The notes under the pieces are model-generated. The model was given only the letters and a program-made list of their open reading frames with translations. It was not told the DNA's origin and did not search any database. DNA of 64,000 nucleotides, taken from contig JAUNVW010000002.1 of assembly GCA_030540635.1 (NCBI GenBank), positions 4,796-68,795 on the forward strand, in the 5' to 3' direction. The first letter of the stretch is position 1. The number at the start of each line of letters is the position of its first letter. This document shows positions 6,726 through 12,680 of this stretch, piece after piece. The DNA is from Tissierellia bacterium. GTDB taxonomy: Bacteria; Bacillota; Clostridia; Tissierellales; Peptoniphilaceae. The translations under genes were made by a program, and so were the position numbers.

Positions 6726-6754
6726 AAAACCCGGACTCATCTCCGGGTTTTTTT
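6726..6754 (+). terminator. Terminator after the flavoprotein operon, also facing yitT
   Basis: Stem AAAACCCGGA / TCCGGGTTTT around a six-base loop, with T and A runs on both sides. It can serve the plus-strand operon and the converging minus-strand gene. Confidence 0.88.
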
Positions 6755-7616
6755 AATCCATTTTTCGCCAACGCCAACCAAAAGTTTCCGATGCATTGGT
6801 GACGGTAATAAAGGCCTTGGGATCGGTGTTTTGAATGAACCGCTTCAAACGAACGTAATCCCGATTATTGACCACGGTTTGAACGACTTCTTTCTCCTTT
6901 TTCGTATATGCTCCCACCGCTCGATAAACATTGGCGGAACGGGTTAATTCTTGAATAAGAAAAGTACAGACTTCTTCTGGATGGGCCGTGTTAATGATGC
7001 AGAGCTTCGATGTATTTAAACCATCGATGGTATGATCGATGATGAGTCCATTTAAAATCACGCCCACAAGGGAATATAAGGCAATCCGTGGACCATAGGC
7101 ATAGCCTGCTAGGACCGTGACGATAAAGTCGACGATTAAACAGCCTTTTCCCAATTCTAGTCCATAGTATTTATGAAAGATTTTAGCAAATATATCCGAT
7201 CCTCCCGTGGAAGCATAGTTATTTAATACCATACCCACGCCACTTCCGTAGAGAAGGACGGCTGCCACCAATTGGATAAATGGATCGTCGATAAACGGTT
7301 TTTCCATGGGCACCAATTGCTCCAAAAGCCATACAAATACCGATAAACCTAGGGCAGCCATTACGGTTTTAATCCCAAAGGCTCGTCCCAGTACAAGATA
7401 ACCAATAATAAACAAGACGATATTAATGAGAATCAGTAATGCTCCCGTTGACAAAGGCAAATATTTCGAAAGGACCATGGCCATTCCCGTAGCCCCACCT
7501 AAGGAAAAGTGATTCGGCAATAGAAAAAAATGAATCCCGAGACCAATCATGACGACGCCAATTATAATCATTAGGATTTCTTTTTTCTTCCCCTGTTGTA
7601 TTTTTTCTTTTCTCAT
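6753..7616 (-). CDS. YitT family membrane protein
   Basis: Integral membrane protein of 287 residues. The DUF161 region provides five or so transmembrane helices (from about residue 12, including GGATGMAMVLSKYLPLSTGAL, to about 200). A C-terminal soluble DUF2179 domain follows, ending in ITVTNASETFG. These features are typical of the YitT/YebE family in Bacillota. The family is widespread and its transported substrate is not settled. The start ATG has AAGGGGGAACGAA ahead. Monocistronic between terminators at 6726 and 7663. Confidence 0.9.
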   Translation of the reverse strand: MRKEKIQQGKKKEILMIIIGVVMIGLGIHFFLLPNHFSLGGATGMAMVLSKYLPLSTGALLILINIVLFIIGYLVLGRAFGIKTVMAALGLSVFVWLLEQLVPMEKPFIDDPFIQLVAAVLLYGSGVGMVLNNYASTGGSDIFAKIFHKYYGLELGKGCLIVDFIVTVLAGYAYGPRIALYSLVGVILNGLIIDHTIDGLNTSKLCIINTAHPEEVCTFLIQELTRSANVYRAVGAYTKKEKEVVQTVVNNRDYVRLKRFIQNTDPKAFITVTNASETFGWRWRKMD

Positions 7617-7662: not shown

Positions 7663-7703
7663 AAAAACACTCGAATTTTCCATTTGAAAATTCGAGTGTT
7701 TTT
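7663..7703. terminator. Hairpin terminator, left copy of a repeated hairpin
   Basis: Perfect 18-base stem (7663-7680 with 7686-7703) and five-base loop CATTT, ending the ABC exporter operon on the minus strand. Its sequence is almost the same as the hairpin at 12299-12337. The two bracket the accessory block. Confidence 0.85.
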
Positions 7704-7720
7704 AATGACGGATCCCACTT

Positions 7721-9481
7721 TTATTCCAAGCTATGGATATCGTCTTTTCCATCCTCATTCTCCTTCTTCGGTAAGGATTTGGTATCTTCTCCATACCATT
7801 TTCCTTGTTCCTTTACCATTTCATGATAAAGAGGATCTATTTTTAATAGTTCTTGATGATGGGCTTTCGCGATAATCTTTCCTTCTTCCATATGAATAAT
7901 CTCATCGACATAGGGACACAATGCTAAACGGTGCGTGATGATCAATGAGGTTTTACCTTTTATTTTATCTAAGACCCACCTGTAAATCTTTGATTCTTGT
8001 AAAGGATCAATATTCGAGGTCGGTTCATCAAAAATAAGAAATGGTTTATTTTCCAAAGCCATTTTTGCGAGATAAAGCTTTTGCCACTCACCTCCACTTA
8101 ATTCGACACCTTTAAATTCTCGGCCAAGTACTGTTTTTGGAGTAAGGGGTAAATCAAATGTTTTTATCATATTGAGCATTTGATTTTCAGAAATTCTTTC
8201 ATCATTTCCCATCTGGAAAAATTCCTGAACCGTCATTTTGAAACGATGAATCTTTTGAGGCATGTAGGAAATCGGGGTAAAGGCTTCTTTCTTTCTTTGT
8301 ATCACTCCCGTTTTAGGTGGATACAATCCCATAAGAAGTTTTGCAATAGTCGACTTTCCTGCACCATTCGACCCAACAATCGCATAGGATTTGTTTTTCT
8401 CCAATACGAAATCCAAAGGCCCCAAGCAAAACTCTTTGTTTTGAGGATAAGTAAAGACGACTTTACAAGATCGTAGCTCGTTCTCATCATTCTCTTCCAT
8501 GGTGATGGTCTCTTTTTCATACTTAAATATCTCAAAGAGAACATCGCTTCTTGATAAATAATAACGACCTTGGCCTAATCCTTGAAATAAACTTGTTGCG
8601 CCAGATTGCATTGATTGAAATGCTAATAATGCAGCAGCAGCCATAGACACTTCAATCTTCTGATTAAAAACGAGAAGGAAGGTGAAAGCGATGGATATTA
8701 AAAGCCCAAGACTTTTTATAAACTCGCAAATTGCGTATTCAAGATAATCCTTTCGATGAAAAGATTTTAATGCTTTTATCCTCTCTTTTTCTTCTTCTTC
8801 CCAAAAACCTTGTATTATTTTTTGACTATTTGAAAGTCGAAGTTCCTTCTGATAAGGATCTTGAAACAACCAGGACCGATATACTTTTGAACGGTGAATA
8901 TTTCCCTTCTGTAAACTCTTTAAGTTCGCAAAATCTTTCCCACGAATCATACGATTTATAAAAATTGGTATCGTAGACAGTAGTGCAAATATACTTAAAA
9001 GCGGATGGTAGGTGTAAAGTAATACAGTGACCGATAATAAGGTAAAAGATGATTTTAGATTGCTAACAAAATTATAATAAAGCATACAAAAATCTTCTGA
9101 AGCAATACTGTCTTTTGCATTTGTTAATCTCTCTAAAAATTCGGTTTTTTCAAACTGTAAAAGGGGAATCTCCATACATTTTTCAGCAAGTTTTTTTCTC
9201 AAAATTAGATTTGTCTTTTCAAATAAACCAGCATTTAAAGCAACTTGATTAACAGATTTTAAAATTCCATCAAAGAGATACCATAAAAACAGAAAAAATA
9301 AGCTCCGATAAAGAAGATTAAGATTTGATTTGAAGGTCACGAGATTTATAATTTTTTCTGTAAAAAAACTAAGTACTGCCGGCATTAAGCCACTCATTAA
9401 GAATGTAATTAGGACAATGGCACTACTTATTGGTACGAAACGAAAGATCTTTTTTATATAGAAAAAATATCTTTTAATCAT
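7721..9481 (-). CDS. ABC exporter half-transporter (membrane domain plus ATPase), second subunit
   Basis: A 586-residue protein with an N-terminal transmembrane domain (about six helices, 1-310). The C-terminal ATPase has Walker A GSNGAGKST, signature LSGGEWQKL, Walker B FLIFDEP and D-loop SNID. It is an exporter-type half-transporter that should pair with the upstream gene product as a heterodimer in the membrane. The start is ATG 9479-9481 with a strong AGGAGGTGG site. A longer open frame exists but has no ribosome site. It overlaps the upstream ABC gene by eight bases, so translation is probably coupled. Next to a SPASM-domain remnant, export of a modified peptide is the likeliest original role. 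Drug export cannot be excluded. Confidence 0.88.
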   Translation of the reverse strand: MIKRYFFYIKKIFRFVPISSAIVLITFLMSGLMPAVLSFFTEKIINLVTFKSNLNLLYRSLFFLFLWYLFDGILKSVNQVALNAGLFEKTNLILRKKLAEKCMEIPLLQFEKTEFLERLTNAKDSIASEDFCMLYYNFVSNLKSSFTLLSVTVLLYTYHPLLSIFALLSTIPIFINRMIRGKDFANLKSLQKGNIHRSKVYRSWLFQDPYQKELRLSNSQKIIQGFWEEEEKERIKALKSFHRKDYLEYAICEFIKSLGLLISIAFTFLLVFNQKIEVSMAAAALLAFQSMQSGATSLFQGLGQGRYYLSRSDVLFEIFKYEKETITMEENDENELRSCKVVFTYPQNKEFCLGPLDFVLEKNKSYAIVGSNGAGKSTIAKLLMGLYPPKTGVIQRKKEAFTPISYMPQKIHRFKMTVQEFFQMGNDERISENQMLNMIKTFDLPLTPKTVLGREFKGVELSGGEWQKLYLAKMALENKPFLIFDEPTSNIDPLQESKIYRWVLDKIKGKTSLIITHRLALCPYVDEIIHMEEGKIIAKAHHQELLKIDPLYHEMVKEQGKWYGEDTKSLPKKENEDGKDDIHSLE

Positions 9482-11219
9482 GCTTTCCCACCTCCTGAAC
9501 CCATTTCTTCTGTTCTTCAAACAATTGACAGTAGAGTCCTTGATTCGCCATTAATTCTTGATGATTGCCATCTTCAACAATCTTACCTTTATCCAAAAGA
9601 AGAATACGATCTGCCATTTTCGCGGAAACCATACGATGGGAGATCAATAAAAGCCCTCGCTTTTGTATCAAAGAGAATAAGCGATCATATTGGGCAGCTT
9701 CCGTTAAGGGGTCTGCATTTGAAAGTGGTTCGTCTAGGATTAAATAGGTATCTCTTGGAAAGATACCTCGTGCAATTGCAAGTCTTTGCCATTGACCTCT
9801 GGATAAATCAATCCCACTTTCTTCCGTCTTTCCTAAGTATGTATCTTTTTTATCTTGTAGATTTTTTAGGGAAGCATAGGCTAAGGCTTCATCGATTCTG
9901 TTGTCATCGTAACGATGCTCGTAATCATAAAGAGCGACATTTTCACGAATCGTTCTCTCAAAGCAAGCAAAATCCTGAAGTACTGTACTAAAGATCTTAG
10001 CTAACTCCTTTTTTGAATAGGCATTAATATCTTTACCAAAGACCATGATCTGCCCCTGATCCGCTTGATAAAGCCCTAAAAGAAGCTTAATAAATGTCGT
10101 TTTCCCAGCACCATTTAAGCCAACTAAAGCGATTTTTTCATCGTTCTCAATTTTAACATTCAGATGATCGATTATCCGCACATCTGTTCCAGGATAAGTA
10201 AAACAAACTCCTCGCATTTCAATAAAAGGTTTTGTTTTATCCTTTTTTCCTTGTGTAAACTTTTCTTCATCAAGATTTAGCCAGTATTCATACTCTCTGA
10301 TGTAAAAACTATTTCTTGCCAAATTTGACATTTGAAAGGAAATCTCTTCTGTAATTTGGAGTACAACTAAAAGTGAAGCTACAAGACTTGTAAATAATCC
10401 AATGCTAATATCATTCGCCATAGTGCCAAGTGCCAGATAGAAAAAAGATGATAAAAACCAAAACAAAGTTATGACTCGACTAAGTACAGCATATCTTTGT
10501 GCTTTCACCGTTGTTTCGATCCGTTCTTTTGACAAAAGTTCTGTAATTTCTACGAGTTTCTCTCGGAAAAGAGAAAGTCCTCCTATCATTCTCAGATATG
10601 ATAATGTATAACGGTCCATAATCTTAGATTCTAAATCATTAAATCGACGTTCTTTCTCACTTTGTTTTTGGAACATTCGATTCATTAAGTCCATTGCTTT
10701 AAAATCAAAAAACACAATAATAAATAAAGTGAAGATATAGAATACTATTAAAACGGGTCCCGCTTTTAAAAACAGCCATAAAATACCGACAATTTGTAAA
10801 AAATCACCGAGTAAAGACAATGTGTTTTCAACCACCGTTACCATCTCTTCTTCTCCCGCTTGTAAGGCTAAGTGAAGATGATCTAAATCATCCGAGGATT
10901 CCATATGTTCGTATGAAATAACTTGATTTTTTTCAATCAATTCTTTTTGAAAAGAGAACGCCGTATCTAATTCTAAAAATAAGCTCGTTTTTCTCCTAAA
11001 ATACCCTAGAAGAATGGCTAGGATATGAATCAGTCCGTAAATAATAAAAAGAAGATATGGAAATTTTAATAGTGTTAATCGGTCAATCATTTTCGATAGT
11101 AAATACAATTCCAAAGGTAATATGATGCTCAAAAGAAAAGAGAGCATTGTGATCGTCATTAAGCGCCCCTGATAAAGATTCGATATTTTTAAAAATGTAT
11201 CTTTTAATTGTTGGTACAT
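9474..11219 (-). CDS. ABC exporter half-transporter (membrane domain plus ATPase), first subunit
   Basis: A 581-residue half-transporter. Six hydrophobic segments lie in the first 300 residues. The ATPase domain has Walker A GLNGAGKTT, signature LSRGQWQRL (the usual second glycine position is arginine), Walker B YLILDEP and D-loop SNAD. Both signatures of the pair keep LS-G-W-Q features typical of peptide-cluster exporters. No peptidase C39 domain precedes the membrane part, so leader cleavage would need another protease. The start ATG lies inside the end of the SPASM frame (16-base overlap) with AAAAGGA upstream. Both subunits look intact, unlike the maturase before them. Confidence 0.88.
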   Translation of the reverse strand: MYQQLKDTFLKISNLYQGRLMTITMLSFLLSIILPLELYLLSKMIDRLTLLKFPYLLFIIYGLIHILAILLGYFRRKTSLFLELDTAFSFQKELIEKNQVISYEHMESSDDLDHLHLALQAGEEEMVTVVENTLSLLGDFLQIVGILWLFLKAGPVLIVFYIFTLFIIVFFDFKAMDLMNRMFQKQSEKERRFNDLESKIMDRYTLSYLRMIGGLSLFREKLVEITELLSKERIETTVKAQRYAVLSRVITLFWFLSSFFYLALGTMANDISIGLFTSLVASLLVVLQITEEISFQMSNLARNSFYIREYEYWLNLDEEKFTQGKKDKTKPFIEMRGVCFTYPGTDVRIIDHLNVKIENDEKIALVGLNGAGKTTFIKLLLGLYQADQGQIMVFGKDINAYSKKELAKIFSTVLQDFACFERTIRENVALYDYEHRYDDNRIDEALAYASLKNLQDKKDTYLGKTEESGIDLSRGQWQRLAIARGIFPRDTYLILDEPLSNADPLTEAAQYDRLFSLIQKRGLLLISHRMVSAKMADRILLLDKGKIVEDGNHQELMANQGLYCQLFEEQKKWVQEVGKHD

Positions 11220-12063
11220 GGTAAATTTTTTCCTTTTCTATAAATTCCCGAACCAATTTCTTCTGCATGATAAATTAAATCCATCAAATGATCAATTGAA
11301 CGGTTAAAAATGTCTTTTGGGCAAGAAGTTTTTTTATTTTGATTAATTTTATCATAATAGCAACCTCCATTACAAATACTATAATAATGACAATTCTGGC
11401 AAAAAGCCTCTTTTTGACTACCTTTTTTACATATTAATTGACTCAAACTATTGTTTAAATCATCATAAAGGCTTTCTCCATTTGTGATAATAAATTCTTT
11501 ATTACCTAGACCACTGATACAATTATAAATGGTACCAGAAGGCCCTAATACAAATTCCTTTTTATTATCTTTAATACATGAAGAGGCTGGAAGAATTCGA
11601 TTTACTGGTATTCCTTGATCAAAAACCTTTTTAAATACCTTGTAAAACTTATCGATTTGATCAGAACGATATAATGAATTCTCCTCTGTATATTTACATC
11701 CACCGTAAGGATCACATTCGTTACCTAAATTAAAAATTATTTTTGGATTTTCACAAAATATATAATCACTATATTTTTCTTTCATATCATGATAATATAC
11801 ATTATTATCTATCCGTTCATTTTTATATCTGATAAAATTTTCATCGATAGTCTTTTCTCGTTTCGGTGTAACGCATATCATATCATTCGATGAATTAAAA
11901 TATAATACATTGCGGTCAATAATTTATCCATATGTCATATTAAAAAAATTAGTATCCATTTCTCCCCTAGTAAAATACTGATTTATTATCTTTGCCTTTG
12001 CTCCAAACATCCTGAAAGTATAACGATTTCATTTTCAAAAAACTTTGTAAATCTTGAGCGCAT
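11204..12063 (-). pseudogene. Decayed radical-SAM/SPASM peptide maturase
   Basis: The last 225 codons (11204-11881) are open and end in a SPASM-type cluster-binding domain. It contains SSC, YNC, CQNCHYYSICNGGC and TSCPKD. The CxxxCxxC motif of the radical-SAM core is absent from the open frame and from the bases before it. Upstream, a strong site GGAGGTG precedes ATG 12063, but that frame ends after 25 codons. A different frame reads on as MFGAKAKIINQYFTRGEM and meets an in-frame TAA, after which IIDRNVLYFNSSND joins the open SPASM frame. This pattern fits a gene with at least one frameshift, one nonsense codon and loss of the catalytic core. An alternative is a short standalone SPASM protein starting at ATG 11881, which lacks a ribosome site. 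Confidence 0.65.
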
Positions 12064-12083
12064 TTATCACACCTCCAATCTGC

Positions 12084-12120
12084 AATATATTAGAATATGA
12101 TTTCTATGTCCTAATATATT
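12084..12120. promoter_or_regulatory. Perfect inverted repeat upstream of the SPASM remnant
   Basis: Arms AATATATTAG (12084-12093) and CTAATATATT (12111-12120) are exact reverse complements, with a 17-base spacer. It lies about 20 bases before the GGAGGTG site on the minus strand. It could be an operator or a leader hairpin. No T run follows. Confidence 0.4.
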
Positions 12121-12250
12121 AATTATATTTTAACATGTTATGGTTTATTTTGTAACTTTTCCAAGATATTATACTATGATTAATAAGATTAATAGGTAAA
12201 ATGAATCCACATCTTTGTGAAAATATAATCTATTCATTCGCCATGTTCAT
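12119..12250 (-). pseudogene. Possible decayed small gene ahead of the SPASM remnant
   Basis: ATG 12248-12250 has GAGGGAG four bases ahead but meets TAG after six codons. The same frame then stays open for 36 codons (reading through IIFSQRCGFILPINL) to TAA at 12119. This is where a peptide precursor gene would be expected, between the glgP-operon terminator and the maturase. The frame may also be chance in AT-rich DNA, so confidence is low. Confidence 0.22.
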
Positions 12251-12298
12251 CGTACTCCCTCGCTAGAAAGCTTCGTATTCACAATAATATACTAAAAT

Positions 12299-12337
12299 AA
12301 AACACTCGAATTTCCAAATTGAAAATTCGAGTGTTTT
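12299..12337. terminator. Hairpin terminator, right copy of a repeated hairpin
   Basis: A 15-base perfect stem (12299-12313 with 12323-12337) and T-rich flanks. It terminates the glgP-thioredoxin operon on the minus strand. It matches the hairpin at 7663-7703 over most of its length. Confidence 0.85.
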
Positions 12338-12338
12338 T

Positions 12339-12680
12339 TTACCCATGAATTAAATTTTCACAAGCTTTACGAAACACCGCTTTACTTTCTTCTCCATAGA
12401 TCCGATGAATTTCTTCATCTCCTTTGAAGAATACCGTACAGGGAAAGGGTGTTGCTCGATATTTTTGTATAATCGGATCTTCTTTAAAATCCAATATATT
12501 TTCTAAACGATATTTATAAAAATCAATTTCGCCATCATAGGCAATGGTTAGATCATCCATAATGGGTTCTATCGTTTTACATGGACAGCAACCGTCAATA
12601 TAGAAAAAGATAATCTTATACCCATCCCTTTTCATGATTTTATCGAAATCTTTCTTTTTTATTCGCATCATTTTGCCCAT
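12339..12680 (-). CDS. Thioredoxin-like protein with a CCPC active site
   Basis: A cytoplasmic 113-residue protein with a thioredoxin fold. The active-site motif is CCPC (31-34) in YIDGCCPCKT, where classical thioredoxin has WCGPC. A cis-proline region, ATPFPCTVFF, lies at about 85-94 with an extra cysteine beside it. No signal peptide. The start ATG has AGGTG upstream, and the gene lies 16 bases after glgP, so they share a transcript. The altered motif, with no tryptophan before it and an additional cysteine, suggests a specialised disulfide or metal role rather than general thioredoxin. The link to glycogen phosphorylase is unexplained. Confidence 0.85.
   Translation of the reverse strand: MGKMMRIKKKDFDKIMKRDGYKIIFFYIDGCCPCKTIEPIMDDLTIAYDGEIDFYKYRLENILDFKEDPIIQKYRATPFPCTVFFKGDEEIHRIYGEESKAVFRKACENLIHG

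Follow-up and report, generated by a model that had tools for sequence, protein, structure and literature searches.

A probable decayed member of a small RiPP operon subfamily with a retained ABC exporter pair in a Tissierellia bacterium

Background

The streptococcal RaS-RiPP loci combine a tiny precursor peptide, a radical-SAM enzyme and a transporter, often under Rgg/SHP control (PMC13361665). RiPPs that incorporate selenocysteine are likewise already known, namely the SbtA/SbtM seleno(thio)oxazole peptides (PMC11002830). The locus considered here belongs to a 64,000-nt stretch of DNA (the window, i.e. the whole stretch that was analysed) from a MAG of a Tissierellia bacterium (1.30 Mb, 69% complete, 54 contigs). 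Comparison with complete operons in related bacteria places the window, in a decayed state, within a new, small and apparently mobile RiPP subfamily. Most probably the locus represents a recently inactivated copy of a rare operon of precursor, radical-SAM/SPASM maturase and two exporters (ABC1 and ABC2), of which the exporter pair was kept for a role of its own.

Results and discussion

Layout of the locus

The island and the two genes that bound it comprise the following features:

7616..6753, gene for what we take, from its own sequence, to be a YitT-like membrane protein, bounding the island on one side
7669..7697, left-hand boundary hairpin 3' of ABC2, the second 29-nt copy of the two in the assembly
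7721..9520 (-), ABC2, intact half-size ABC exporter, 599 aa as listed (ABC_tran match and exporter tree)
9474..11219 (-), ABC1, intact half-size ABC exporter, 581 aa (ABC_tran match and exporter tree)
11204..11881 (-), remnant maturase, SPASM half only, with homology at about 11767-11234 (TIGR04085 and C-terminal profile)
11882..11959 (-), possible 5' remnant of the maturase; its start codon (11959, preceded by GGGGAG) shares the SPASM frame, which the TAA at 11926-11924 closes
11986..12063 (-), degenerate precursor ORF, MRSRFTKFFENEIVILSGCLEQRQR, behind GGAGGTGTGATAA (shuffles and window-free profile)
12304..12332, right-hand boundary hairpin, a terminator-like element of 29 nt that separates the island from the thioredoxin-like gene
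12680..12339, thioredoxin-like gene, bounding the island on the other side

The two hairpins at the island ends are near-identical, and no third copy is present in the 69%-complete assembly. They may be a mark of the arrival of the island, or a terminator that was copied in some other way.

The original prediction, of a SPASM frame devoid of a radical-SAM core followed by two intact, overlapping half-size ABC exporters, had its coordinates right and agrees with the domain matches. The SPASM frame (11881..11204, (-) strand, 225 codons) is recovered by TIGR04085 with 41.8 bits against a cut-off of 27 bits, and contains no Pfam match to a radical-SAM domain. The frames of ABC1 and ABC2 are open, overlap and both have an ABC_tran domain; on visual inspection neither has lost its Walker A/B, signature or H-loop motifs. 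For ABC2 the ATG at 9481 is a more probable start than the listed TTG at 9520.

Complete relatives and their distribution

A search of 61 genomes recovered two close full-length counterparts with frames of 449 codons and 34-37% identity across the SPASM half. The two loci, L021 from an Ezakiella MAG and L022 from Fenollaria timonensis GD5, each encode a 445-aa maturase with the core CNLNCSYC, followed by overlapping ABC1 and ABC2 genes. A search across 249 genomes of the order brought to light one more member, in G195, a genome of the same order as that of the window, whose 433-aa maturase is 48% identical to that of Ezakiella and is again followed by ABC1 and ABC2. All three complete operons have the gene order precursor, maturase (433-445 aa), ABC1 and ABC2, and their maturases carry a CNLNC(S/I)YC radical-SAM core. 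A scan of genome contigs returned the L021 and L022 loci only, and no further close member was recovered at useful similarity in class and phylum samples, plasmids, phages and viral contigs, although one sample behind this result contained no genome with a complete member, making its silence weak. The maturase family thus appears to be rare among the genomes searched. At the DNA level the only near match to the locus among plasmids was a 70-bp ABC fragment, and Rfam yielded no convincing known RNA element in the intact loci.

Several other gene clusters were observed in the course of these searches. Just 5' of the G195 operon (L083:2099-3320) are a divergent HTH regulator and an ORF for a 50-aa peptide whose N-terminus is hydrophobic; the two may form a peptide-sensing regulatory pair. 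Within the same family, L084:286-7620 has the appearance of a RiPP-like cluster, with several radical-SAM genes in a row and a 57-aa peptide ORF ending in CRCSSKTSDQIC. In another RiPP-like locus (L085:5049-6584), a gene for a 437-aa radical-SAM/SPASM protein precedes an ORF for a Cys-rich peptide of 62 aa and an ABC gene. In a related genome, L075 (G087:C64:6253-7461) displays another SPASM maturase frame with an internal TAA.

Absence of the radical-SAM core

When the three complete maturases were split into parts for profile searches, the C-terminal profile matched the window with E=8e-47, and the N-terminal and radical-SAM core profiles found no match there. The complete radical-SAM core (CxxxCxxC) expected of the operon subfamily is absent from the window, so that this copy is a remnant and not a working member. 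The distance from the stop of the precursor to the start of the SPASM homology is ~219 nt in the window versus ~830-850 nt in the relatives and, by arithmetic on these gap lengths, ~610 nt are missing, including the whole radical-SAM core. The proposal that the maturase of this RiPP locus is dead and its exporters are intact is thereby supported. A sequencing error had been named as a way in which it could fail; a point error cannot account for a loss of this size. The suggested comparison with relatives pointed the same way, in that these have a complete maturase, none has the short SPASM protein, and a precursor was also found.

The break could alternatively be an artefact of MAG assembly or of the population, or a strain difference, with the cells carrying a complete maturase. 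Such a reading draws on the incompleteness and fragmentation of the MAG, but the locus is interior to a 107-kb contig and the deleted core, when sought in the rest of the assembly, was not found. Moreover, an assembly gap leaves the degenerate core of the precursor unexplained, and we consider an artefact improbable.

A second alternative is that the short SPASM protein functions on its own, in precursor binding or immunity, as a partner of the 25-aa peptide encoded upstream and of the exporters. Like a gene in use, the frame has stayed open for 225 codons despite very AT-rich DNA and has retained seven SPASM-region cysteines; furthermore, the 25-aa ORF has kept its ribosome-binding site and leader. 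However, no stand-alone SPASM frame of this family was found in the other genomes searched (61, and 249 of the order), and among the family matches in the 249 genomes all other frames have at least 409 codons as against 239 in the window. Its plausible start codon at 11959 is stopped in frame by the TAA at 11926-11924, no ribosome-binding site is evident in front of the ATG at 11881, and core cysteines of the precursor have been lost, so that a stand-alone function appears quite unlikely. The stretch 11959-11882 has no significant homology to maturase N-termini; 11959-11800 had seemed promising by eye as the maturase N-terminus and was dropped, the similarity not being significant.

Returning to the inactivated operon, the SPASM half of the window is 34% identical to the relatives, compared with 28-32% for the intact exporters against the same genomes. 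As its divergence is about that of the exporters, the break in the maturase is probably recent; the exporter-like similarity together with the seven cysteines suggests that the SPASM half was under constraint for most of its history.

The precursor peptide

The frames 5' of the SPASM frame had been described as broken. One of them (12063-11986, (-) strand) is a real small gene, a degenerate precursor that had been missed in the first reading. Its 25 codons, preceded by a strong ribosome-binding site, encode MRSRFTKFFENEIVILSGCLEQRQR, which is homologous to the 28-33-residue peptides of the three complete operons, i.e. MISRVRKFLRNQQTIYSGCTCRSQRCTS in Ezakiella, MISRVRKFLRNQQTIYGGCTCRSQRCAN in Fenollaria timonensis and MIDKITKMIKGVVTTYDT[TGA]NCGSQRCAESHVTY in G195. 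In all three relatives the precursor ORF lies directly 5' of the maturase behind a GGAGGTG-type ribosome-binding site, and the window ORF occupies the equivalent place. The gapless alignment of the window and Ezakiella peptides scores 50.5, against a shuffle mean of 7.4 and with 0 of 2000 shuffles reaching it. In a search with a precursor profile made without the window, the ORF ranks first of 2545 window segments (E=0.0045; next 1.2). In view of this homology, the idea that the 25-aa ORF encodes the N-terminal end of the broken maturase was rejected. Only one of the three core cysteines is left, with the second replaced and the peptide stopping where the third would be expected.

The Ezakiella precursor ORF lies between the arms of a perfect inverted repeat of 12 nt (AGCTACACAGAT / ATCTGTGTAGCT; L021:1574-1737); L022 has a similar inverted repeat, and in L083 a long hairpin comes after the precursor. 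Such elements possibly set the expression of the precursor relative to the maturase.

The exporter pair as a separable module

In the exporter tree, ABC1 and ABC2 fall into two separate supported clades, each with the corresponding gene of the related operons, and the window shares with this subfamily the orthologous, overlapping ABC1 and ABC2 genes 3' of its maturase remnant. The exporters linked to RiPP genes do not constitute a clade of their own; this was considered and rejected, as RiPP linkage is scattered on the tree. In G107, G108 and several other genomes, close Fenollaria relatives among them, the pair is present without precursor and maturase; in G107 and G108 its gene neighbourhood is that seen in F. 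timonensis, and its identity with the Ezakiella copies is 92-96%. F. timonensis itself has, 5' of the cassette (L022:8350-8581), a duplicate of the native ABC1 leader region together with the first 85 bp of ABC1. The simplest reading of this duplicate in the one genome would be an insertion scar, left when the cassette inserted beside a resident pair. The exporter pair is thus a separable module, which would explain its survival in the window. That the same pair is kept without RiPP genes elsewhere, and that a cassette can insert beside it, argues for a role of its own, as had been proposed for the window exporters. Membership of their protein family would suggest peptide or drug efflux, or self-protection.

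The other possibility raised for the exporters is that they serve a RiPP made elsewhere in the genome, with a maturase acting in trans. Their intactness would be compatible with this, as would the ~31% of the genome that lies outside the assembly, yet among the ten radical-SAM genes visible no further SPASM match in this genome rises above the cut-off, and no second precursor copy is found in it at E<=0.5. We therefore give such an arrangement little credence, and favor retention of the pair for a role of its own.

Beside the Fenollaria exporters is a methyltransferase-like gene with an in-frame TGA (L042:6093-6842 and L045:5709-6458; FHAT[TGA]VGGS), flanked by homologous codons on both sides in several genomes. 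The gene is likely to encode a selenoprotein.

Base composition

The AT-richness reported for the stretch is confirmed, with 27.4% GC at 11204-12100 versus 37.5% across the window. Its interpretation as a sign of decay does not survive the comparison, since the intact maturases of the three other genomes have 24.6-24.7% GC; low GC is hence a property of the cassette. In Fenollaria and Ezakiella the maturase/precursor region has 24.6-26.9% GC, and the exporters and neighbours 34-40%; the G195 operon and its surroundings have 24-28%. The difference between cassette and neighbours suggests transfer of the cassette from an AT-rich source.

A candidate selenocysteine precursor in G195

The G195 precursor (L083:3378-3479) has an in-frame TGA at the position of the first core Cys of its relatives. 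The homology runs on past the TGA (SQRC), and this is the best-scoring of 11,175 stop-free segments of the locus. The genome carries SelB and tRNA-Sec, so that an in-frame TGA at a Cys position of homologues and the Sec machinery are both present in G195, and the rest of the operon is intact. As a possible bSECIS element, a 5-bp hairpin is found at a suitable distance 3' of the TGA, with a stability no better than that of shuffles. The precursor is accordingly a candidate selenocysteine RiPP that would stand apart from the known SbtA/SbtM peptides, with a Cys nonsense mutation, one base away, as the alternative, given that a single genome has the TGA. On a wider reading, which we hold to be slightly better supported than its negation, the window would stand at the decayed end of a hitherto undescribed RiPP subfamily that moves horizontally and whose precursors swap Cys and Sec at the first core position, (U/C)-x-C-x4-C, and in G195 a maturase distinct from the SbtM family would produce a Sec-containing modified peptide.

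Functional and evolutionary implications

In the intact relatives, a precursor of 28-33 residues with a C-terminal (Cys or Sec)-x-Cys-x4-Cys core would be translated and modified in its core by the maturase, presumably by radical cross-linking at Cys/Sec side chains, with the product exported by a predicted ABC1/ABC2 heterodimer. In the window species, the ~610-nt deletion would have taken the radical-SAM core, an in-frame stop closes the frame 5' of the remnant, and the precursor has lost two of its three core cysteines. Given these three lesions the locus is hardly able to make a modified peptide. The exporter pair may have been retained for a role such as tolerance to, or efflux of, peptides of this kind or drugs.

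Taken alone, the window is an ordinary case of gene loss. What deserves attention is the modular history, together with the candidate selenocysteine precursor found in G195. One RiPP operon is seen in several states: three genomes have it complete, several have the exporters only, in F. timonensis it is apparently inserted beside a resident exporter pair, and in the window it is freshly broken. With these states present in related bacteria, it can be tested directly in which order biosynthesis, export and possible self-protection were gained and lost. The precursors of the intact relatives are very short and easily synthesised.

Comparison with known systems

The exporters are reminiscent of the half-size exporter pairs typified by TM_0287/TM_0288, with fused membrane and ATPase domains encoded by adjacent genes, and ABC1 matches TM_0288 chains along its whole length (E=2e-43). 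They differ in that ABC1 and ABC2 occupy clades of their own, common to related operons of the order.

As in the RaS-RiPP loci (PMC13361665), the tiny precursor of the intact relatives shares its operon with a single radical-SAM/SPASM enzyme and with exporters, and in G195 the divergent HTH regulator and small secreted-looking peptide ORF extend the likeness. However, they come from other bacteria, their (C/U)xCx4C motif with SQRC lies outside the 16 named subfamilies of that study, there are two half-exporters in the operons, and the maturase and precursor of the window are broken. No Rgg/SHP-type regulator and peptide lie beside the window island, and the G195 HTH regulator matches none of the Rgg families.

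The assignment to sactipeptide or ranthipeptide loci made at the outset finds no support from profiles, as none of the complete relatives comes near any NCBIfam equivalog cut-off. Membership would depend on the chemistry, namely a thioether between Cys sulphur and an alpha or non-alpha carbon. The best NCBIfam match of the complete maturases is CefB, the Cys-every-fifth radical SAM/SPASM maturase (NF038107), with 135 and 121 bits; the PapB model gives 79 and 78 bits (cut-off 340) and the SkfB model 43 bits (cut-off 300). Two core cysteines of the precursors are five apart, as in the CefB system, but the maturases are far under its cut-off of 600 bits and the precursors match no NCBIfam model. 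Together, the intact relatives make up a new maturase subfamily of small size.

For the G195 maturase, an SbtM-type model is not among the best 25 of 43 NCBIfam matches. As in the SbtA/SbtM system (PMC11002830), the genome uses Sec and the radical-SAM/SPASM enzyme adjoins a precursor that contains an in-frame TGA; in contrast to it, the relatives of G195 have Cys at the TGA position and the precursor is very short. G195 offers a candidate for a second family of selenocysteine RiPPs.
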